From contig NZ_BCWP01000016.1 in assembly GCF_001592265.1 (NCBI RefSeq), positions 1 through 64,000 on the forward strand: DNA of 64,000 nucleotides, written 5' to 3'. This DNA is from Curvibacter delicatus NBRC 14919 (GTDB lineage: Bacteria; Pseudomonadota; Gammaproteobacteria; Burkholderiales; Burkholderiaceae_C). The position numbers were made by a program, and so were the translations under genes. Positions 49,762 to 60,825 of this stretch are shown piece by piece (within the stretch, counting starts at the first letter, position 1; each line of letters begins with the position of its first letter). The notes below the pieces were generated by a model that was not told the origin of the DNA, made no database searches, and saw nothing but the letters and a program-made list of their open reading frames with translations.

Positions 49762-50697
49762 ATGAGAATCGCATTCATCGGCCAGCAGGACTTTGGCAAG
49801 GCCGCACTGGAGGCCTTTGTGGCACGCGGCGACGAAATCGCCGGCGTGTTCTGCAAACCGGAAAAGCCGGGCGAGAAACCGGACGCCCTGCGCGCCGCCG
49901 CCGAGGCGCTGGGCCTGAAGGTGTTCCAGTTCGCCAGCCTCAAGAGCCCCGAAGCCGAGCAGGCCATGCGCGAGTTGCGGGCTGACATCGGCATCATGGC
50001 CTTCGTGCTGCAGTTCGTGCCGCAGTCGTTTGCCAACATTCCGACGCACGGCACCATCCAGTACCACCCCTCCTTGCTGCCCCGCTACCGCGGCCCCTCC
50101 TCCATCAACTGGCCGATTGCCCGCGGCGACCGCGAAACCGGCCTGACCATCTTCCGTCCCACCGATGGTCTGGACGAGGGTCCGGTCATCCTGCAAAAAA
50201 CCTGCCCGATCGGCCCCGACGCCACCCTGGGCGAGGTCTATTTCAATGCCCTGTTCCCGCTGGGTGTGGCCGCCCTGCTGGAAGCCGCCGATCTGGTGGT
50301 GGCTGGCCAACACCAGGAAGTCGTGCAGGACGAAAGCCAGGCCAGTTACGAAGGCTGGTTCAAGGCCGATGAGGCCCGCATCAACTGGGCCAACCACGTC
50401 GACCAGGTCTACAACCTGATCCGCGCCTGCAACCCGGCGCCCGGTGCCTGGACCGAACTGGCCGGCAGCCGGGTCTCGATCTTCGATTGCCGCAAGCACC
50501 TGACCCGGCGCTTTGCCGACGTCAGCGGCAAACCCGGTGAGATCGTGCAGATCACGGAAACATCGATCTTCATCAATGCCCAAGGCGGCCAGATCGAAGT
50601 GCTCAAGCTGCGCCCTGACGGCGGCAAGAAGATGGGTGCGGCGGACTTCGCCCGCGAACACCGGCTGACTGCGACGGCCACGTCATTGGACATATAA
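49762..50697 (+). CDS. Formyltransferase-family protein (formyl-THF hydrolase/dehydrogenase N-domain type)
   Basis: A 311-residue protein with the Fmt-type formyl transfer domain (1-190) and the OB-like C-terminal domain (205-305). The active-site segment YHPSLLPRYRGPSSINWPIA followed by GLTIFRPTDGLDEGPVILQK has the essential His and Asp, and Asn is in SSIN. These details are closer to the N-terminal half of 10-formyl-tetrahydrofolate dehydrogenase than to Met-tRNA formyltransferase. It lies next to the oxalate locus, whose central intermediate is formyl-CoA, so a role in formyl-group disposal is possible but unproven. GAGGGGA precedes the ATG. Confidence 0.8.
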   Translation: MRIAFIGQQDFGKAALEAFVARGDEIAGVFCKPEKPGEKPDALRAAAEALGLKVFQFASLKSPEAEQAMRELRADIGIMAFVLQFVPQSFANIPTHGTIQYHPSLLPRYRGPSSINWPIARGDRETGLTIFRPTDGLDEGPVILQKTCPIGPDATLGEVYFNALFPLGVAALLEAADLVVAGQHQEVVQDESQASYEGWFKADEARINWANHVDQVYNLIRACNPAPGAWTELAGSRVSIFDCRKHLTRRFADVSGKPGEIVQITETSIFINAQGGQIEVLKLRPDGGKKMGAADFAREHRLTATATSLDI

Positions 50698-51137: not shown

Positions 51138-51151
51138 TTGACCACCATCAA
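51138..51151. promoter_or_regulatory. FNR-type palindrome upstream of tctC
   Basis: TTGACCACCATCAA fits TTGA-N6-TCAA exactly at the outer bases. It lies 105 bases before the tctC start. The same pattern occurs between the Crp/Fnr-type gene and oxc. Regulation by that protein is inferred. Confidence 0.5.
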
Positions 51152-51256
51152 GAGAATTTATTCCGAATAATTCCACCATCTGCCTGTGCGAGATTCCAGC
51201 AAGAGAATTGATAGACAGATGGAAACCTGACAGTACTAACTAAACGAGGAGACATC

Positions 51257-52285
51257 ATGGTCAAAGCCATACATGCAAGGTTGAGTTCGAGCCTGGTCAA
51301 GGCCGCCACAGGGTTGATTGCCATTGCGGCACTGGCAGCCACCACAGCGGCAAACGCCGCCTGGGAACCCACCAAGCCGGTTGAGTTTGTCGTGCCCGCA
51401 GGCACCGGTGGTGGCGCAGACCAGATGGCTCGCCTGATGCAAGGCATCATCGTCAAGCACAAGCTGATGAACCAGTCGCTGATCGTCGTGAACAAATCCG
51501 GCGGTGCCGGCGCAGAAGGTTTCCTCTCCGTCAAGGAGGCCAAGGGCGACCCGCACAAGATCATCATCACGCTGTCCAACCTGTTCACCACCCCGCTGGC
51601 CACCGGCGTGCCCTTCAACTGGAAAGAAATGACGCCCGTGGCCATGATGGCGCTCGACCAGTTTGTGCTGTGGACGAATGCCGAGAAGCCTTACAAGTCG
51701 GCCAAGGAGTACATCGACGCCGTCAAGGCCGCCGGCCCGAACAAGATGAAGATGGGCGGCACCGGCTCCAAGCAGGAAGACCAGATCCTGACCGTCGGCA
51801 TGGAAAAGGCAACCGGCACCAAGTTCATCTACGTGCCCTTCAAAGGCGGCGGCGAAGTGGCTGTTCAGCTGGTCGGCGGCCACATCGACTCCAGCGTGAA
51901 CAACCCGGCAGAGGCCGTGGCCCAGTGGCGTGCCGGCAAACTGCGTGCCCTGTGCGTGTTCGACGACACCCGCATGCCTTACAAAGCCAAGGTCACCGAC
52001 ACCCAGTCGTGGAACGACATCCCGACCTGCAAGGAAGCTGGCGTGCCGACCGATTACGTGATGCTGCGCGGCATCTTCGCGGCCCCCGGCATCTCGGCCG
52101 ACCAGCTCGCCTACTACGTGAACCTGCTCAAGAAAGTCCGCGAGACACCGGACTGGAAGGAGTACATGGAAAAAGGCGCGTTCAACCAGACCTTCATGAC
52201 CGGTGCTGATTTCAACAAGTGGCTCACCGCCGCCGAAGAAACCCACCGCACGCTCATGAAGGAAGCTGGCTTCCTCGCCAAGTAA
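51257..52285 (+). CDS. tctC: Tripartite tricarboxylate transporter substrate-binding protein
   Basis: A 342-residue periplasmic binding protein of the TTT (TctC/Bug) family. A signal peptide runs to about residue 34 (ATTAANA-A). The mature start AWEPTKPVEFVVPAGTGGGA and DQMARLMQGII are characteristic of Bug folds, as are KSGGAGAEGFLSVKEAKGDP and FKGGGEVAVQLVGGHIDS. GAGGAGA precedes the ATG. It heads the operon tctC-tctB-tctA-kinase/BON next to oxalate genes; the ligand is probably a small dicarboxylate, with oxalate the leading guess. Confidence 0.92.
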   Translation: MVKAIHARLSSSLVKAATGLIAIAALAATTAANAAWEPTKPVEFVVPAGTGGGADQMARLMQGIIVKHKLMNQSLIVVNKSGGAGAEGFLSVKEAKGDPHKIIITLSNLFTTPLATGVPFNWKEMTPVAMMALDQFVLWTNAEKPYKSAKEYIDAVKAAGPNKMKMGGTGSKQEDQILTVGMEKATGTKFIYVPFKGGGEVAVQLVGGHIDSSVNNPAEAVAQWRAGKLRALCVFDDTRMPYKAKVTDTQSWNDIPTCKEAGVPTDYVMLRGIFAAPGISADQLAYYVNLLKKVRETPDWKEYMEKGAFNQTFMTGADFNKWLTAAEETHRTLMKEAGFLAK

Positions 52286-52414
52286 ACCCATGGCCCGGCA
52301 ACTCCCGGGCCTGTTTTCCCCGACACATACCTGCTTGGAATGCGCGTCAGTTGATGCTGACAGCCATTCCAGGACAGGTGCCGGCCAAAAATATCGTTTC
52401 GCCAAACTTTCGTC

Positions 52415-52936
52415 ATGGACCCGAACATGAACTCACACGAAGACAGTCGCTCAGGGCTTGCCACCCACACCGTTGACGCCATTGTCGCCATCCTGGTGCT
52501 GATCCTGGGCGGCGTGATCATCTACGGCAGTCGCCAGCTCGGCTCCGAATGGACCACCGACGGCCCCGGCTCCGGTTATTTCCCCTTCTACATCGGACTG
52601 ATCCTGGTGATCTCGGCCTTGGGCATCCTGTACCAGTCACTCGCTGGCAAGGAGAAGAACACGGAAATCTTTGTCGATCGTGAACAGCTGGGTCGCGTCT
52701 TTTCGGTGCTCATCCCTGCTGCCGTCTATGTCGGCGCCATCCAGGTGATCGGCATCTACGTCGCATCAGCGATCTACATCGCGTTGTTCATGGTCATCCT
52801 TGGCAAGTTCAGCTGGATCAAGAGCGTGACGGCAGCACTCGTCGTCAACGTCGTGTTTTTCATGATGTTCGAGGTCTGGTTCAAAGTGCCGCTGTTCAAG
52901 GGCGCCTACGACCTGCTCAGCTTCCTGGGTTATTGA
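52415..52936 (+). CDS. tctB: Tripartite tricarboxylate transporter small membrane subunit
   Basis: A 173-residue protein with four TM helices (about 22-40, 60-77, 93-113, 118-165 as a pair). It has the TctB pattern LGSEWTTDGPGSGYFPFYIG before TM2. Two ATGs (52415 and 52430) are possible; neither has a strong ribosome site. TctB supports the large subunit TctA in the inner membrane. Confidence 0.9.
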   Translation: MDPNMNSHEDSRSGLATHTVDAIVAILVLILGGVIIYGSRQLGSEWTTDGPGSGYFPFYIGLILVISALGILYQSLAGKEKNTEIFVDREQLGRVFSVLIPAAVYVGAIQVIGIYVASAIYIALFMVILGKFSWIKSVTAALVVNVVFFMMFEVWFKVPLFKGAYDLLSFLGY

Positions 52937-52970
52937 GCACGGACCTGTCCGGCACTACGGAGACAAAAAA

Positions 52971-54500
52971 ATGGAAGAACTCAACGCACTGTTTCATGGG
53001 TTTGCCGTCGTCATGACGCCCATGAACTTTCTTCTGATGGTGGTGGGCATCGTGCTCGGCGTGCTGATCGGCGTGCTGCCGGGACTAGGCGGCGCCAATG
53101 GCGTGGCCATCCTGCTGCCGCTGACCTTCAGCATGAACCCGACCTCGGCCATCATCATGCTGTCCTGCATCTACTGGGGTGCCCTCTTCGGCGGCGCCAT
53201 CACCTCGGTGCTGTTCAACATCCCGGGAGAACCCTGGTCGGTGGCCACCACATTCGATGGCTATCCCATGGCGCAACAGGGCCGAGCGGGTGAAGCGCTG
53301 ACTGGTGCTTTCACCTCTTCCTTTGTCGGCGCTTTCGTGGCCGTGGTCATGATCACGTTCCTGGCACCGCTGGTGGCCAAGTTCGCGCTCAAGTTCGGAC
53401 CACCCGAGTTCTTCTCTGTCTATCTGCTGACCTTCTGCAGTTTCGTCGGCATGGGCAAAGGCTCGCCGTTCAAGATCCTGGCGTCCATGTGCATCGGCTT
53501 CGGTCTGGCTGCCGTCGGTATGGACACCGTCACGGGCCAGCTGCGCCTGACCTTCGGCTGGCATGAACTGATGCGCGGCTTCGACTTCCTGATTGCCGTG
53601 ATCGGCCTGTTCGGGATTGGCGAGATCCTGCTGTCCATGGAAGAAGGCCTGGCCTTCTCCGGCAAGAGCGCCAAGATCGACCCCAAGGTCGTCCTGCAGA
53701 CCTGGAAGCAACTTCCCAAGTACTGGGCCACCTCGGTCCGGGGCTCGCTGATCGGCATCTGGATGGGCATCACCCCCGGCGGTGCCACCCCTGCATCCTT
53801 CATGAGCTACGGCATCGCCAAGAAGATGTCCAAGGACGGCGCCAAGTTCGGCACTGGCCAGCTCGAAGGCGTGGTGGCGCCCGAAACGGCAGCGCACGCC
53901 GCCGGCACCAGCGCCCTGCTGCCCATGCTGGCACTGGGCATCCCCGGCTCGCCAACGGCCGCTGTGCTGCTGGGCGGCCTGCTGATCTGGGGCCTGCAAC
54001 CCGGTCCGCTGCTGTTCGTCGAACAGAAGGACTTCGTCTGGGGCCTGATCGCCTCCATGTACCTGGGCAACCTGGTCGGTCTGCTGGTGGTGCTGACCAC
54101 CGTGCCGCTGTTCGCCTCCATCCTGCGCATTCCGTTCTCGATCATCGCACCGGTGATCATCGTGATCTGCGCGATTGGTGCCTACACCGTGCACAACGCC
54201 ATGCTCGACATCTGGTTCATGCTGCTGTTCGGTGTGATCGGTTATGTCTTCAAGAAACTCGACTACCCGCTTGCGCCGCTGGTGCTGGCACTGGTCCTGG
54301 GGGACAAGGCGGAAGACTCGTTCCGTCAGGCCATGCTGGTGTCGCAAGGCGAGTTGTCGATCATGTTCTCCAACCCGCTGGTCGGCTCGATCACGACCCT
54401 GGCTCTGGTGCTGCTGTTGTGGCCGCTGATTTCCAAGCTGATCGCACTGATCAAGCCACCGAAGCAGGATGAATTCGCCGCCGAGCGGCCTGTGGATTGA
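52971..54500 (+). CDS. tctA: Tripartite tricarboxylate transporter large membrane subunit
   Basis: A 509-residue permease with about 11-12 TM helices. The TctA signatures are clear: GVLPGLGGANGVAILLPLTF near residue 35, GGAITSVLFNIPGEPWSVAT and GVVAPETAAHAAGTSALLPM, followed by LGIPGSPTAAVLLGGLL. Length is normal. It takes substrate from TctC by ion-driven secondary transport. GGAGACA lies before the ATG. The kinase/BON gene starts 14 bases after its stop. Confidence 0.95.
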   Translation: MEELNALFHGFAVVMTPMNFLLMVVGIVLGVLIGVLPGLGGANGVAILLPLTFSMNPTSAIIMLSCIYWGALFGGAITSVLFNIPGEPWSVATTFDGYPMAQQGRAGEALTGAFTSSFVGAFVAVVMITFLAPLVAKFALKFGPPEFFSVYLLTFCSFVGMGKGSPFKILASMCIGFGLAAVGMDTVTGQLRLTFGWHELMRGFDFLIAVIGLFGIGEILLSMEEGLAFSGKSAKIDPKVVLQTWKQLPKYWATSVRGSLIGIWMGITPGGATPASFMSYGIAKKMSKDGAKFGTGQLEGVVAPETAAHAAGTSALLPMLALGIPGSPTAAVLLGGLLIWGLQPGPLLFVEQKDFVWGLIASMYLGNLVGLLVVLTTVPLFASILRIPFSIIAPVIIVICAIGAYTVHNAMLDIWFMLLFGVIGYVFKKLDYPLAPLVLALVLGDKAEDSFRQAMLVSQGELSIMFSNPLVGSITTLALVLLLWPLISKLIALIKPPKQDEFAAERPVD

Positions 54501-54514
54501 AGGAGAAACAGACC

Positions 54515-55348
54515 ATGCCCGTTATCGCAATGACCCAGGAAATGGGTTCACTCTCCAAAGATGTCGCCATGGAGCTGGCCGCCAGCATGAACCTGGCCGT
54601 GATGCGCCACGAAGTGGTGGACCATGTGGCCGGAAAGATGCATGTCTCCACCAGCCTGATCAACCGCCTGCGCGAAGGCAAGGCCGGCATCATCGAGCGT
54701 GTCACCACCGACACCGAGCGCGTGGCGCTCTACAGTGCCGAGGAAATGTTCGAACTGGCCAACAAGGGCAATGTCGTCCTGCGCGGCTGGGGCGCCACCT
54801 GCCTGTTGCGCCCGGTGCAGCATGTCGTGTGCGTTCGCATCACACGTTCGTTCGGCAAGCGTGTCGAATGGCTGATGAACAACCTGGAAACAGACGATCG
54901 CGAATTCGCCGAGAACGAAATTCGACGCAGCGATCACGCACACGCCAGCCGCATGCATCAGCAATTCGGCGTGACCTGGGGCGACCCGGTGCTCTACGAC
55001 CTGGTCCTCAACACCGACCGCCTCTCGGTTCACAGCTGTGTCGAGCAGATCCGTCAGCTCACCACCCGCCCGGAGTTCCAGGAATCGGAAGAGTCGCGCA
55101 AGCTGCTGGGCAACATGACGCTGGCCGCGCGCGTGCGAGCCGCGCTCAAGACCCATGAGCCGACCCAGGAGGTGAACATCACCATCGAGGCACGCAACGG
55201 ACGTGTCCAGTTGAGCGGCATCGTTCTGAACCCGACGGAAAAAAATGAAGTCGAGCAGGTCGCCGCTCAGGTGGCCGGCGTCAGCGGTGTGGACAGCAAG
55301 CTGCGCCTGATGTCACCCTCGCGTACCTTCACCTACTCCAAGACCTGA
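54515..55348 (+). CDS. Cytidylate-kinase-like domain fused to a BON domain
   Basis: A 277-residue protein. Residues 1-195 resemble the cytidylate kinase-like family (PVIAMTQEMGSLSKDVAMEL, GWGATCLLRPVQHVVCVRIT), but the usual GSGG phosphate loop is GSLSKD. Residues about 203-268 form a BON domain (VRAALKTHEPTQEVNITIEA and GRVQLSGIVLNPTEKNEVEQ), a fold usually found in periplasmic or membrane-binding proteins. There is no signal peptide or TM helix. AAGGAG precedes the ATG at 54515. Last gene of the tct operon, followed by a strong terminator; role unknown, perhaps regulatory for transport. Confidence 0.82.
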   Translation: MPVIAMTQEMGSLSKDVAMELAASMNLAVMRHEVVDHVAGKMHVSTSLINRLREGKAGIIERVTTDTERVALYSAEEMFELANKGNVVLRGWGATCLLRPVQHVVCVRITRSFGKRVEWLMNNLETDDREFAENEIRRSDHAHASRMHQQFGVTWGDPVLYDLVLNTDRLSVHSCVEQIRQLTTRPEFQESEESRKLLGNMTLAARVRAALKTHEPTQEVNITIEARNGRVQLSGIVLNPTEKNEVEQVAAQVAGVSGVDSKLRLMSPSRTFTYSKT

Positions 55349-55362
55349 CGGTCCACGACCTC

Positions 55363-55400
55363 AAGCCCTGGTTCTGCATCACAGAACCGGGGCTTTTTTG
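55363..55400 (+). terminator. Rho-independent terminator of the tct operon
   Basis: AAGCCCTGGTTCTG and CAGAACCGGGGCTT pair (one G-T-type mismatch) around a short loop and run into a T6 tract and a second T4. It starts 15 bases after the kinase/BON stop codon and ends at the tail of the convergent regulator gene. Confidence 0.9.
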
Positions 55401-55403
55401 TTT

Positions 55404-56012
55404 TCAGATCTTGCCGCGCTGCTTGAGGCGGCTGAGCGTCTCGGCCGACAGGTTCAGGTAGGCCGCGAGTTCCTTCTTGGGGATACGGTCGAACAGTTCC
55501 GCGTGCTTGCGGATAAAGCGGTGCACCCGGCCCGGCGCATCCAACAAGTGCAGCGTGATGGTGTGCGCCATGATTTCACTCATGAGGTTCATCACGTAGT
55601 ACTCGAAGGGTTTTTTCACCTCCGGATGCTGCTCCATGAAGGCAATCCACTGCGGCATCGGCAGCTTGGCCACACGCGCCTTGGTCACCGACACGATGCT
55701 GTAAGGCGTCGGTGTTTTCAGGCACCAGGCGGCATAACTGGTTTCCATGTCGCGCTCGGCCGCAAACCGCAGGATCATTTCCTTGGCTTGGCTGTTGGTC
55801 ACCACACGCTTGAGGACCCCATCGAGGATGAAGTACTGCTCCATCTCGTGCACGCCTTGGTGCAACAGGTAGTCACCCTTGTTGCACTCCACCACGGACA
55901 AGAGCTGTTCCAGCTCGGCGTTGGCGCTCTCGCTCATCTCCTTGAGAACGACGTTCTGCCTGAGCTGAACCCGGATGATGTTTTTATCTGGATGATTTTC
56001 GATGGACGACAT
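55404..56012 (-). CDS. Crp/Fnr-family transcriptional regulator
   Basis: A 202-residue regulator with a cyclic-nucleotide-type sensor domain (about 20-115, NKGDYLLHQGVHEMEQYFIL), a dimer helix and a C-terminal HTH (about 165-200, IPKKELAAYLNLSAETLSRL). The recognition helix has E-x-x-S-R (AETLSRL), the FNR pattern that reads TTGA half-sites. FNR's N-terminal cysteine cluster is absent, so it is not an oxygen-sensing Fe-S FNR; the effector is unknown. The ATG at 56012 is preferred to one 15 codons upstream. Located between the tct operon and oxc, with TTGA-N6-TCAA sites beside both. Confidence 0.9.
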   Translation of the reverse strand: MSSIENHPDKNIIRVQLRQNVVLKEMSESANAELEQLLSVVECNKGDYLLHQGVHEMEQYFILDGVLKRVVTNSQAKEMILRFAAERDMETSYAAWCLKTPTPYSIVSVTKARVAKLPMPQWIAFMEQHPEVKKPFEYYVMNLMSEIMAHTITLHLLDAPGRVHRFIRKHAELFDRIPKKELAAYLNLSAETLSRLKQRGKI

Positions 56013-56073
56013 GGGAAAAGCGTACCGCACTGCACAGCGCCCGACGCATCGGAGCAAAAGAAATGTCTCGAAA

Positions 56074-56089
56074 ATTGACCGTGGTCAAT
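56074..56089. promoter_or_regulatory. FNR-type palindrome between the regulator and oxc
   Basis: ATTGACCGTGGTCAAT is a perfect 7-bp inverted repeat with a 2-base centre, and contains TTGA-N6-TCAA. It is 62 bases upstream of the regulator start and about 190 bases upstream of oxc. It could serve autoregulation, oxc control, or both. Confidence 0.65.
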
Positions 56090-56277
56090 GGAGGAATCCA
56101 AATCGCTTTTCTATGATACCTCGACGATGAGAAATGCCCCGTACCAGCGCCTTTGCAAGACCGGGAAACGCCATCGCCGAACTTGATTGAACGCCCCTTT
56201 GGTCACTTTTTCTGAAACCGTCCACCCCAGCCACATTGCGTGCCCTTCATCAAAGTCAAACGAAGAGACATTTCATC

Positions 56278-58017
56278 ATGACAAACGAATCACACTCGCC
56301 TGAACTCACCGACGGCTTTCATCTGGTCATCGAGGCCCTGAAACTCAACGGCATCAGCAACATCTATGGCCTGCCGGGCATTCCGGTGACGGACCTGACC
56401 CGCATGATGCAGGAAGAAGGCCTGCGCGTGATTTCCTTCCGTCACGAAGCCAATGCCGGCAACGCCGCCGCGATTGCCGGCTTCATGAACGGGGCCAAGG
56501 GCGTGCCCGGCGTCTGCCTCACGGTGTCGGCCCCCGGCTTCCTGAATGGTCTGGTCGCACTCGCCAATGCCACCACCAACTGCTGGCCCATGATCCTGAT
56601 CTCCGGCTCCTCCGAGCGCGAGATCGTCGACCTGCAACAGGGGGATTACGAGGAGATGGACCAGCTGGCCATCGCCAAGCCCCTGTGCAAGGCCGCCTTC
56701 CGCGTGCTCAATGCGGAAGACATCGGCGTGGGCATCGCCCGCGCCATCCGTGCTGCCGTCTCGGGCCGTCCCGGTGGCGTCTACCTGGACCTGCCCGCCA
56801 AGCTGTTCGGCCAAGCCATGGACGCCGCCGCCGGCAAGGCTTCGCTGATCAAGGTGGTGGACCCGGCGCCGCGCCAGATTCCGGCGCCCGATGCCGTCAA
56901 GCGGGCCCTGGATCTGCTCAAGAGTGCCAAGAAACCCCTGATCCTGCTCGGCAAGGGCGCGGCCTACGCTCAGGCCGATGCCGACATCAAGACCCTGGTC
57001 GAGAAGTCTGGCATTCCCTACCTGCCCATGTCCATGGCCAAAGGCATTCTGCCCGACACCCATGAGCAGTGCGCCTCGGCCGCCCGCTCCTTCGTCCTGC
57101 CGGAAGCTGACGTGGTGCTGCTGGTGGGCGCTCGGCTGAACTGGCTGCTCTCGCACGGCAAAGGCAAGACCTGGGGCGGCAAGGACCACAAGGCGGCCGG
57201 TGGCCAGAAATTCATCCAGATCGACATCTCCCCGATCGAAGCCGACAGCAACGTGGCCATCGACGCCCCGCTGGTGGGCGACATCGGCTCCTGCGTGGCC
57301 GCCCTGCTCGCAGGCATGGGCGCCAACTGGGCCAAGCCCCCGGCCGAGTGGACCGGCGCCGTGGCCGAACGCAAGAACAAGAACGTCGCCAAGATGGCTG
57401 AGACCCTGGCCAAGGACCCGACGCCGATGAACTACCACAGCTCGCTGAACGTGGTACGCGACATCATCAAGGCCAACCCGGATGCCATCCTGGTCAACGA
57501 AGGCGCCAACGCGCTGGACTTCACCCGCTCCATCGTCGACATGTACAAGCCGCGCAAGCGCCTGGATGTGGGCACCTGGGGCGTGATGGGCATCGGCATG
57601 GGTTTTGCCGTGGCTGCCGCCGTCGAAAGCGGCCAACCGGTCATTGCCATCGAAGGTGACAGTGCCTTCGGTTTCAGCGGCATGGAAGTCGAGACCATCT
57701 GCCGCTACAACCTGCCGGTCTGTATCGTGATCATGAACAACAACGGCGTGTACCGCGGCGACGAGCTGGCACGTGGCGGATCCAAGGATCCCTCGCCCCT
57801 GGTATTCGTCAAGGGCGCCCGCTACGACAAGCTGATGGAAGCCTTCGGCGGCGTGGGCGTGCAAGCCACCACCCCGGCCGAACTGCGCCGTGCGATGGAA
57901 GAAGCCATCAAGTCGCGCAAACCGACCCTGATCAACGCCGTCATCGACGAAGGCGCGGGTACCGAGAGCGGTCGCATCACCAGTCTGAACCCGACCAGCG
58001 CGGCGAAGAAAAAGTAA
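56278..58017 (+). CDS. oxc: Oxalyl-CoA decarboxylase
   Basis: Thiamine-diphosphate enzyme converting oxalyl-CoA to formyl-CoA and CO2. The 579-residue protein (Oxalobacter's is 568) has the three-domain ThDP layout: the activating Glu region with [20 protein letters not shown] and [20 protein letters not shown]; the middle domain; and the ThDP/Mg motif [20 protein letters not shown] ending in NNNGVYRG. The ATG at 56278 gives the family-like opening; an upstream ATG adds 14 residues. frc follows 32 bases later. Confidence 0.96.
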
Positions 58018-58049
58018 TTTCACAAGAGCAACCCATAAGGAGATAGAAA

Positions 58050-59324
58050 ATGTCTGGAAACAAACCGCTTAACGGCATCAAGATCATCGACTTCACGCAC
58101 GTGCAAGCCGGCCCGGCCTGCACCCAGCTGCTGGCCTGGTTCGGCGCGGACGTGATCAAGGTCGAACGCCCGGGTTCCGGCGACGTCACCCGCAGCCAGT
58201 TGCGTGACATGCCCGATGCCGACGCGTTGTACTTCACCATGCTCAACAGCAACAAGCGCGGCCTGACGCTGGACACCAAGACCGCCGAAGGCAAGGAAGT
58301 GCTGGAAAAGCTGATCAAGACCTCCGATGTGATGGTCGAGAACTTCGGCCCCGGCGCGCTGGACCGCATGGGCTTCACCTGGGAGTACATCCAGAAGCTC
58401 AACCCCAAGATGATCCTGGCTTCGGTCAAGGGCTTCAGCGAAGGCCACCACTACGAAGACCTGAAGGTCTACGAGAACGTGGCGCAATGCGCTGGCGGTG
58501 CCGCCTCGACCACCGGCTGGTGGAAAGGTGAGAACTCCGTGCCCACCATCTCCGCAGCCGCCCTGGGTGACACCAACACCGGCATGCACCTGGCCATCGG
58601 TATCCTGACGGCCATCATCGGCCGCCAGCAGACGGGCAAGGGCCAGAAGGTGGCTGTGGCCATGCAGGATGCCGTGCTCAACCTATGCCGCGTCAAAATG
58701 CGCGACCAGCAGCGTTTGGAAAAAGTCGGCTATCTGGAAGAGTACCCGCAGTACCCGCATGAAATGGACGCGTTCAAGGACAAGGTCACACCGCGTGGCG
58801 GCAACGCCGGCGGCGGCGGCCAGCCGGGCTGGATCCTGAAGTGCAAGGGCTGGGAGACCGACCCTAATGCCTACATCTACTTCACGGTGCAAGGCCACGC
58901 CTGGGAGCCGATCTGTGACGCGCTGGGCAAACCCGAGTGGAAGACCGATCCGGCCTACACCACACCCAAGGCCCGCCAGCCGCACATCGACGAGATCTTC
59001 GCCACCATCGAAGACTTCATCAAGGACAAGACCAAGTTCGAAGCGGTCGACATCTTCCGCAAGTACGACATTCCCTGCGCCCCGGTGCTGTCCATGAAGG
59101 AACTGCTGCGCGACGAGTCGTTGCGCAAGAGCGGCTCCATCGTGGAAGTACCGCACAAGGTGCGCGGCAGCTACTGGACCATCGGCAGCCCGATCAAGTT
59201 CTCCGATCTCAAGCCCGAGATCAAGGCCTCCCCGCTGCTGGGCGAGCACACCGACGAGGTGCTGGCCGAGCTGGGTTACAGCAAGGACCAGATCGCGGCC
59301 ATGCACGCGAAAAAAGCGGTCTGA
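58050..59324 (+). CDS. frc: Formyl-CoA:oxalate CoA-transferase
   Basis: Class III CoA-transferase moving CoA from formyl-CoA to oxalate, closing the cycle with OXC and releasing formate. The 424-residue protein has Q19 and Y141 near the active site, the catalytic Asp at 174 in [11 protein letters not shown], and the glycine loop [16 protein letters not shown]. The position of Oxalobacter Trp48 is Gln (TRSQLRD), as in E. coli YfdW. AAGGAGA precedes the ATG. Followed by a strong terminator, so oxc-frc is the core transcript. Confidence 0.95.
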
Positions 59325-59349
59325 GTTCCGCTTCCCCTGACGAAACTAT

Positions 59350-59376
59350 GCGGCGCCTCAAGGCGCCGCTTTTTTT
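59350..59376 (+). terminator. Rho-independent terminator of oxc-frc
   Basis: GCGGCGCC and GGCGCCGC pair exactly around TCAA and are followed by a seven-base T tract. It lies 25 bases after the first frc stop codon. Confidence 0.93.
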
Positions 59377-59500
59377 CCCGGCCGGTTTCAGAACACCGTC
59401 GCGCGCGTCATGAAGGGCACATCACGCCACACCTTTCACACCTATCAGCAGCGCACCTGATCTGCATAAAAAACAGCAATATTTCGACGTAGGCAAACTC

Positions 59501-59556
59501 TATAAAATGCAAGTCATATACAAGACCCGTCCGGTCTATTCATAAGAAATTCTTAT
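59501..59556 (+). promoter_or_regulatory. Promoter-like and palindromic leader region of the second frc
   Basis: TATAAAAT at 59501 resembles a -10 element, though no good -35 was found at the right distance. Downstream lie two inverted repeats: AGACC-N5-GGTCT at 59523-59537 and ATAAGAAATTCTTAT (7-bp perfect, one-base centre) at 59542-59556, 21 bases before the second frc start. The pattern differs from the FNR-type palindromes, so control is probably separate. Confidence 0.4.
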
Positions 59557-59577
59557 CATTGAAATCAGGAGATTGGT

Positions 59578-60825
59578 ATGAGCAAGGCACTCGAAGGCGT
59601 CAGGATTCTCGACTTCACGCATGTGCAGTCGGGCCCCACCTGCACACAATTGCTGGCATGGTTCGGCGCGGACGTGATCAAGGTGGAAAAAGCAGGTGAA
59701 GGCGACGCCACGCGCGGCCAGTTGCGTGACATCCCCGACGCGGACAGCCTGTACTTCACCATGCTGAACCACAACAAGCGCTCCATCACGCTCAACACCA
59801 AGGACCCCAAGGGCAAGGAAGTGCTGGTCAACCTGATCAAGCAATGCGACGTGATGGTGGAAAACTTCGCGCCCGGTGCACTCGATCGCATGGGCTTTCC
59901 GTGGGAGAAGATCCAGGAGATCAATCCGCGCATCATCCTGGCCTCGGTCAAGGGCTTCGGCCCTGGCCCCTACGTGGACTGCAAGGTGTACGAGAACGTG
60001 GCCCAGTGTACCGGCGGCGCCGCCTCCACCACCGGTGACCCGGACGGCGTGCCCATGGTGACCGGCGCGCAGATCGGCGACAGCGGCACCGGCCTGCACC
60101 TGGCCCTGGGCATCGTGACCGCCCTGTTCCAGCGCGAAAAGACCGGTCGCGGCCAGAAGGTACTGGCCGCCATGCAGGACTCCGTGCTCAACCTGTGCCG
60201 CGTCAAGCTGCGCGACCAGCAACGCCTGGAACGCACCCGCGTGCTCAAGGAGTACCCGCAGTACCCCGAAATCGAGTTCGGCGAGGCCGTGCCGCGTGCC
60301 GGCAACGCCTCCGGTGGTGGCCAGCCGGGTGCCGTGCTCAAGTGCAAGGGCTGGCAAAAAGACCCCAACGCCTACATCTACTTCATCACCCAAGCCGCCG
60401 TGTGGCCGGCCATCTGCAAGATCATCGGTGAGGAGGACTGGATCACCAACCCGCACTTCGCCACCCCCGAGGCGCGCCTGCCACACCAGAAGATGATCTT
60501 CGACCGCATCGAGGAGTGGACCAAGACCAAGACCAAGTTCGAAGCCATGGACATCCTCAACGAATTCGACATCCCCTGCGGCCCCATCCTGTCGATGAAG
60601 GAAATCGCCGAGGACCAGTCATTGCGCGAGACCGGCACCATCGTGGAAGTCGACCATCCGGTACGCGGGAAGTACCTGTCTGTCGGCAATCCGATCAAGT
60701 TGTCCGACAGTCCCACCGAAGTGACCCGTTCCCCCTTGCTGGGCGAACACACCACTGAAGTGATGGCACAAATGGGCTACAGCGAAGCGCAGATCGCTGA
60801 GTTGAAAGCCGCGCGCGTCATCTGA
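59578..60825 (+). CDS. frc: Second formyl-CoA transferase homologue
   Basis: A 415-residue close relative of the preceding Frc, with [20 protein letters not shown] at the N-terminus, catalytic Asp at 168 ([11 protein letters not shown]) and glycine loop [12 protein letters not shown]. It differs around the residue 150-160 loop ([14 protein letters not shown] in place of [13 protein letters not shown]) and has one Gly fewer in the flexible loop. It may use oxalate with another CoA donor, such as succinyl-CoA or acetyl-CoA, and prime the cycle. GGAGATTGGT precedes the ATG. It has its own promoter region after the frc terminator. Confidence 0.9.

Follow-up and report, generated by a model that had tools for sequence, protein, structure and literature searches.

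Oxalate degradation is relevant to soil carbon, plant roots and gut bacteria, and the locus considered here raises the question of whether a single local protein controls both the uptake and the breakdown of oxalate. Within the window (the whole 64-kb stretch of DNA that was analysed), a gene for a Crp/Fnr-type regulator lies between a transporter unit, tctCBA, and the breakdown genes oxc and frc1, and a palindromic site stands ahead of each of the two units. The reading that we favour, at a probability of roughly 0.87, is that this regulator is a dedicated activator of an oxalate regulon, acting in class II fashion on the oxc-frc1 and tctCBA(-kinase/BON) units. The features concerned are:

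49762-50697, fmt-like gene, a member of the 64-kb window's gene set
51138-51151, no strand assigned, putative tctC operator TTGACCACCATCAA, 105 bases ahead of the tctC ATG at 51257, exactly where the initial annotation had placed it
51174-51179, plus strand, weak -10-like hexamer CACCAT of tctC (3/6 matches), in the same register as at oxc
51257-52285, plus strand, tctC, tripartite tricarboxylate-type transporter binding protein, with its ATG at 51257
52415-52936, plus strand, tctB, small membrane subunit
52971-54500, plus strand, tctA, large membrane subunit
54497-55348, plus strand, cytidylate-kinase-like/BON fusion, last gene of the tct unit, missing from some relatives
55363-55395, plus strand, terminator-like hairpin at the point where the tct unit and the regulator gene converge
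55404-56012, minus strand, gene for the 202-aa Crp/Fnr-type regulator, probable ATG at 56012, ETLSR at residues 191-195
56074-56089, no strand assigned, putative oxc operator ATTGACC-GT-GGTCAAT, between the regulator gene and oxc
56112-56117, plus strand, predicted oxc -10 hexamer TATGAT, in the class II position, with its first base 30.5 bp away from the centre of the operator
56278-58017, plus strand, oxc, oxalyl-CoA decarboxylase (995 bits against a cutoff of 557)
58050-59324, plus strand, frc1, formyl-CoA transferase, 32 bp past oxc and predicted to form a unit with it
59350-59369, plus strand, strong terminator-like hairpin dividing oxc-frc1 from frc2
59578-60825, plus strand, frc2

The most likely start of oxc is the ATG at 56278. 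Translation of the regulator likely begins at the ATG at 56012, which is common to most orthologues, and not at the TTG that opens the longest reading frame. The predicted role of the tctC-encoded transporter is oxalate uptake.

We consider first the protein itself. The N-terminus of the regulator matches the Pfam cNMP-binding-type domain PF00027 (34.6 bits against a cutoff of 27.5), and no separate Pfam helix-turn-helix domain was matched in it. As modelled by AlphaFold (mean pLDDT 89.5, with helices at residues 179-185 and 190-198), the protein combines the beta-barrel of the Crp/Fnr superfamily with a C-terminal helix-turn-helix that includes a recognition helix; the model contains no strand past the last helix (190-198), and hence no wing. 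The initial annotation had read the recognition helix as AETLSRL and had noted the absence of the iron-sulfur cysteines of FNR, and both observations are borne out: E191, T192, L193, S194 and R195 are invariant across 27 aligned orthologues, and the only two cysteines, C43 and C97, are each variable in that set. In CRP, the contacts to cAMP are made by a Glu and an Arg of the phosphate-binding cassette; a profile alignment with 4i02 places Ser and Thr at these positions of the regulator, and its match to PRK11753 fails (21.8 against a cutoff of 266). FNR-type iron-sulfur sensing was rejected because the cysteine ligands are missing, as was CRP-type cAMP sensing because the contact residues are missing; given the lack of these key residues, the regulator is not expected to sense either and would be independent of both. 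A natural guess is that it responds to oxalate, oxalyl-CoA or formyl-CoA rather than to oxygen or cAMP.

Among known systems, E. coli-type FNR resembles the regulator in its Crp/Fnr fold, E-x-x-S-R recognition helix, TTGA-N6-TCAA core and class II layout. FNR has iron-sulfur cysteines and reads the half-site TTGAT, whereas the present regulator lacks such cysteines, goes with the half-site TTGACC, has no wing and has its sites at oxalate genes. The best PDB fold matches are the cAMP-dependent proteins CRP and GlxR, which share the same two-domain plan but differ from the regulator in the Ser/Thr at its cAMP-contact positions and in its shorter C-terminus. By sequence, the best match to a solved structure is 3dn7, the cyclic nucleotide binding regulatory protein of Cytophaga hutchinsonii (2.9e-13), in an alignment that reaches near the C-terminus and with a similarly short end in the regulator, although the two are just 16-18% identical in the fold match.

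On the DNA side, the pattern TTGA-N6-TCAA, to which the initial annotation had fitted both sites, has exactly two matches in the 64-kb window, one being the tctC site at 51138-51151 and the other TTGACCGTGGTCAA at 56075-56088, within ATTGACCGTGGTCAAT at 56074-56089. The description of the latter as a perfect palindrome holds for its 7-bp arms and not for its central GT, which is not self-complementary. With a chance expectation of 0.48 matches in the window, and two or more in 7/100 window shuffles, the significance of the two sites from the window by itself is weak, and it is the relatives that make them convincing. A scoring matrix built from the oxc-side operators of 87 relatives, with the window and its closest kin excluded and with no tctC site used, ranks the window's oxc site first over the 64 kb (33.1) and its tctC site second (12.9); the third-best place scores only 4.9. 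The genome scan for TTGACC-N2-GGTCAA proposed at the outset returned one exact occurrence in all 3.76 Mb. Allowing up to two mismatches gave 314 matches against 143 with a reversed control, which is too loose for further targets to be named.

To assess conservation, we assembled a set of 119 loci comprising the window, 38 regulator-bearing stretches from relatives and named records (the best 80 of 528). The nearest named relatives among the matches listed are Curvibacter and Hylemonella assemblies. After one locus (L160, with 21 bp left) had been dropped and duplicates collapsed, 95 distinct regulator-upstream regions remained. The palindromes are indeed kept in homologous loci, the point on which the initial annotation had staked its proposal: in this set, which includes the best 80 of 528 named records and whose members are phylogenetically non-independent, TTGA-N6-TCAA occurs in 92/95 regulator-upstream regions (80/95 with exact TTGACC-N2-GGTCAA) and in 51/58 distinct tctC-upstream regions, the latter count leaving out three contig-edge loci. 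When the regulator-upstream regions are shuffled, on average 0.26 of the 95 carry the pattern and never more than 2, and of the 3840 possible pairings of an inverted four-letter word with a spacer, TTGA-N6-TCAA ranks first across the 95 regions. In an operator-anchored alignment, little information is found in most columns beyond the operator itself, the A/T bases that flank it and the -10 region, and the conservation is therefore not mere recency of descent.

The exceptions are few. The strict site was not found in three regulator-upstream regions (L043, L045 and L047), whose regulators are 64-65% identical; L043 has its oxc on the opposite side of the regulator, with the site TTGACTTGGGTCAA directly ahead of oxc. 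Among the seven tctC-upstream regions in which the strict site was not found, L035 has a high-scoring near match, and the other six have none within 600 bp. The idea that both palindromes are chance matches could appeal to the shuffles of the window described above, yet it is contradicted by the conservation, by the matrix ranks of 1 and 2, by the regulator-free controls and by the -10 spacing described below, and we have rejected it as extremely improbable.

The same loci delimit the predicted regulon. Upstream of other genes, the pattern was found at 0/26 tauE, 0/35 fmt, 0/54 tctB and 0/60 tctA regions (0/175 in total), and at 4/77 frc1 regions. We accordingly rejected tauE as operator-controlled, and also fmt, which has no operator of its own in the window. 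The matrix search upstream of frc2 and fmt in the window gave best scores of only -19 and -25. The regulon proposed by the initial annotation survives for tctCBA and oxc-frc1, on the strength of conservation and co-occurrence, but loses frc2: in this genome, frc2 stands behind a terminator and no operator was found there, so that the regulated unit is taken to be oxc-frc1 only. Across the set, 55 distinct frc1-frc2 gaps contain a perfect-stem terminator in 34 cases and an operator in 7. Culturable relatives with the locus include Hylemonella gracilis (L127 and L130), in which frc2 likewise lacks an operator, and Herminiimonas fonticola (L153).

Across genomes, the regulator and oxc largely occur together. 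Of 100 genomes (our own included), 39 carry the regulator and 36 carry oxc, and every genome with oxc also has the regulator. An order-level sample of 250 genomes, which overlaps the first, contains both genes in 42, oxc only in 3 (G496, G535 and G623), the regulator only in 6 and neither in 199 (Fisher P 1.7e-37, treating genomes as independent despite their kinship). In a class-level sample of 321 genomes, the regulator and oxc were each found in our own genome only. A phylum-level sample has oxc in 25/349 genomes; at the 19 best-scoring loci other than our own, TTGA-N6-TCAA was found within 400 bp of oxc in 0/19 (best matrix score -7.8), and the regulator profile, which matches 48/250 order genomes, was found in 0/20 of those 19 genomes plus G821. 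One of the oxc-only genomes, G623, has TTGAGTATATTCAA approximately 700 bp ahead of oxc, a poor match.

Six regulator-bearing genomes in which oxc has become detached from the regulator gave mixed results (G521 was left out, its whole-length oxc match being on another contig and an oxc piece with a site adjoining its regulator, L217). Exact TTGACC-N2-GGTCAA precedes oxc in G067 and G435, which are of one genus; G061 has a strict but low-scoring TTGA-N6-TCAA, G556 has two near matches (15.9 and 14.9) and G514 has one (8.9), and G430 offers a poor match only (0.7), essentially no site. Overall, the operators appear to be kept where relatives share the gene order and to be missing where the regulator is missing. 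Their conservation, the joint occurrence of the regulator with oxc, and the failure to find an operator at the 19 regulator-free oxc loci together support the regulon, which has a high probability of being real on this comparative evidence.

These data also bear on whether the sites might instead belong to FNR, the oxygen sensor, encoded elsewhere in the genome, with the neighbouring Crp/Fnr-like protein having a different job. The genome encodes nine cNMP-domain proteins, and among those that we read (all but L185, L186 and L190), L187 is FNR-like, with an N-terminal CxxCxxxxxC cluster and an ETVSR helix; moreover, the FNR box is TTGAT-N4-ATCAA, which the tctC half-site TTGAT (as ATCAA) fits with one mismatch. 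However, where the FNR box has T, at position 5, the oxc half-site has C in 91/91 aligned sites, the 19 regulator-free loci (in genomes sorted by regulator, not by FNR) show no site at oxc, and site and regulator remain adjacent where another enzyme replaces oxc. Binding by FNR is thus quite improbable, and we infer that it is the local protein that binds both operators.

The promoter layout addresses what such binding would do. In class II activation, the activator site is centred near -41.5, with the -10 element at a fixed distance. We searched 91 oxc-side regions (one of 92 being left out for length, and a few having another gene in place of oxc) for -10-like hexamers, defined as at least four matches to TATAAT with A2 and T6. 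In this set, which includes the best 80 of 528 named records, 91/91 regions have such a hexamer with its first base at a distance of 29.5 or 30.5 bp from the centre of the operator, compared with a mean of 0.42 at other offsets, and the oxc promoters would thereby all fit the layout of a class II activator. The tctC promoters are less uniform: with the threshold set at three matches, 39/51 have a hexamer in the class II register, against a mean of 3.04 elsewhere, while at four matches that register is not enriched (3/51) and offset 21.5 leads (15/51). On the regulator side, a -10-like hexamer lies 16.5 bp from the operator centre in 20/91 regions; these elements are too weak for proof and give no more than a hint of autoregulation.

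One might alternatively suppose that the local protein is a repressor released by oxalate, as the -35 region of oxc lies partly within the operator and the regulator-side hexamers at 16.5 bp would suit occlusion on that side. A repressor, however, needs no exact spacing, which is seen at all 91 oxc promoters and matches class II activation, and a consensus promoter scan of the window found no sigma-70-type promoter at the oxc operator. We consider repression unlikely, and activation the likely effect on transcription. Under the activator reading, a dimer of the regulator, with its Crp/Fnr fold, would read TTGACC half-sites through the E-T-L-S-R recognition helix and bind WTTGACC-N2-GGTCAAW. 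For both oxc-frc1 and tctCBA(-kinase/BON), the operator would stand in for the -35 box, and the dimer, centred near -41.5, would contact RNA polymerase in class II fashion; predicted transcription starts lie near 56123-56124 for oxc and 51186 for tctC. The operator may additionally control the regulator's own gene. TctCBA, in turn, would bring in oxalate.

A further line of support comes from loci in which the operator stands ahead of other genes. Many loci without tctCBA have MFS genes near the regulator, and when six of these MFS proteins, drawn from five loci, were tested against TIGR04259, the model for oxalate/formate antiporters, all six passed; across 96 distinct loci, ten operators precede OxlT-type genes, some of them only about 43% identical to the query. 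In the six regulator-only genomes (G066, G095, G427, G459, G470 and G509), a different TPP enzyme adjoins the regulator, with the operator ahead of it and a frc-type gene after it in 6/6. Two of these enzymes were scored as oxalyl-CoA decarboxylases, and both fell short of the cutoff of 739 bits (229 and 239); for the one that was searched against solved structures, the nearest relatives are 2-hydroxyacyl-CoA lyases. The regulon reading is supported by this presence of the operator ahead of genes that share a role without being homologous, namely those for OxlT-type antiporters and the second TPP enzyme.

For comparison, the oxalate cluster of Burkholderia phytofirmans PsJN comprises an OxlT-type antiporter, oxc and frc, and its oxc mutant has lost growth on oxalate (PMC3886118); as described there, it shares the oxc/frc pathway but has the antiporter where the window has tctCBA. 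By word search, the main text of that paper contains no occurrence of "regulator", "Crp" or "Fnr", and the main texts of PMC12927642, PMC10192776 and PMC9476978 contain none of "regulator"; the passages on transcriptional regulators in PMC4764995 concern other families. Among the titles and abstract openings of the matches listed in the open-licence literature, none was recognisable as describing a dedicated oxalate regulator of bacteria whose operator is known. As far as these searches show, the regulator is a Crp/Fnr superfamily protein so far undescribed in that literature.

We would go further only tentatively, and with less than even confidence, in proposing a wingless Crp/Fnr sensor of oxalate (or of oxalyl- or formyl-CoA) in Burkholderiales, whose regulon exposes a tripartite oxalate importer and a TPP enzyme that replaces oxc. 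If so, a tripartite tricarboxylate-type importer would stand in for OxlT, and an enzyme near the 2-hydroxyacyl-CoA lyases would replace oxalyl-CoA decarboxylase under the same operator in genomes showing no oxc, although the regulator and an frc-type gene are retained there. The analysis yields a candidate regulator with a sharp 16-bp operator and exactly spaced promoter elements, and it supplies a defined candidate DNA target for a wingless Crp/Fnr protein. The operator could also serve as a marker for pathway genes (tctCBA, OxlT-type genes and the second TPP enzyme) that oxc similarity alone would miss. In one locus (L137), a single operator lies between fmt and an OxlT-type gene, and the 96 loci hold 31 further motif matches without an assigned target. 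A further match in the genome itself, ATTGACC-N4-TCAA (L069), stands ahead of an open reading frame resembling a periplasmic binding protein.

Behind the regulator's operator, the position of oxc is occupied by a different TPP enzyme in all six genomes of the order sample (250 Burkholderiales genomes) that carry the regulator and lack oxc. This enzyme and the other features considered here are as follows (coordinates refer to the window unless preceded by the handle of a relative's locus).

L036:9284-11050, L040:8580-10301 and loci L224-L227: TPP enzyme in the place of oxc
L119:12248-13834, minus strand: porin-type gene
49762-50697: methionyl-tRNA formyltransferase-like (fmt-like) protein, near the oxalate genes
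52292-52311: hairpin resembling a terminator, separating tctC from tctB
54497-55348: fusion of a cytidylate-kinase-like domain and a BON domain, last gene of the tct unit

The TPP enzyme shares approximately 26% identity with Oxc, and the nearest relatives of solved structure for the L036 copy are 2-hydroxyacyl-CoA lyases; it is possibly a second oxalyl-CoA decarboxylase or a lyase using formyl-CoA.

Other genes also follow operators in relatives. At L036:2350-7493 and in L165, an operator stands before a series of genes of the OxlT, FAA-hydrolase and PanE types that ends with a second gene of OxlT type, the PanE-like protein being reminiscent of an oxalyl-CoA reductase reported in Methylobacterium. 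In L167, L169 and L176, the first recognised gene beyond the regulator's operator is of frc1 type, not oxc. At L119, the operator-like TTGACTGTGGTCAA is followed 94 bp on by the porin-type gene, a possible outer-membrane component of the regulon, and then by an OxlT-type gene.

A possible role of the fmt-like protein, which scores below the TIGR00460 cutoff (173.7 versus 201.5 bits), is to process the formyl group carried by formyl-CoA; in several distant relatives such a gene lies immediately 3' of frc-type genes. Within the tct unit, the hairpin could leave the binding protein in excess over the membrane subunits. The kinase-like/BON fusion gene is present in many tct-type loci and missing from some.
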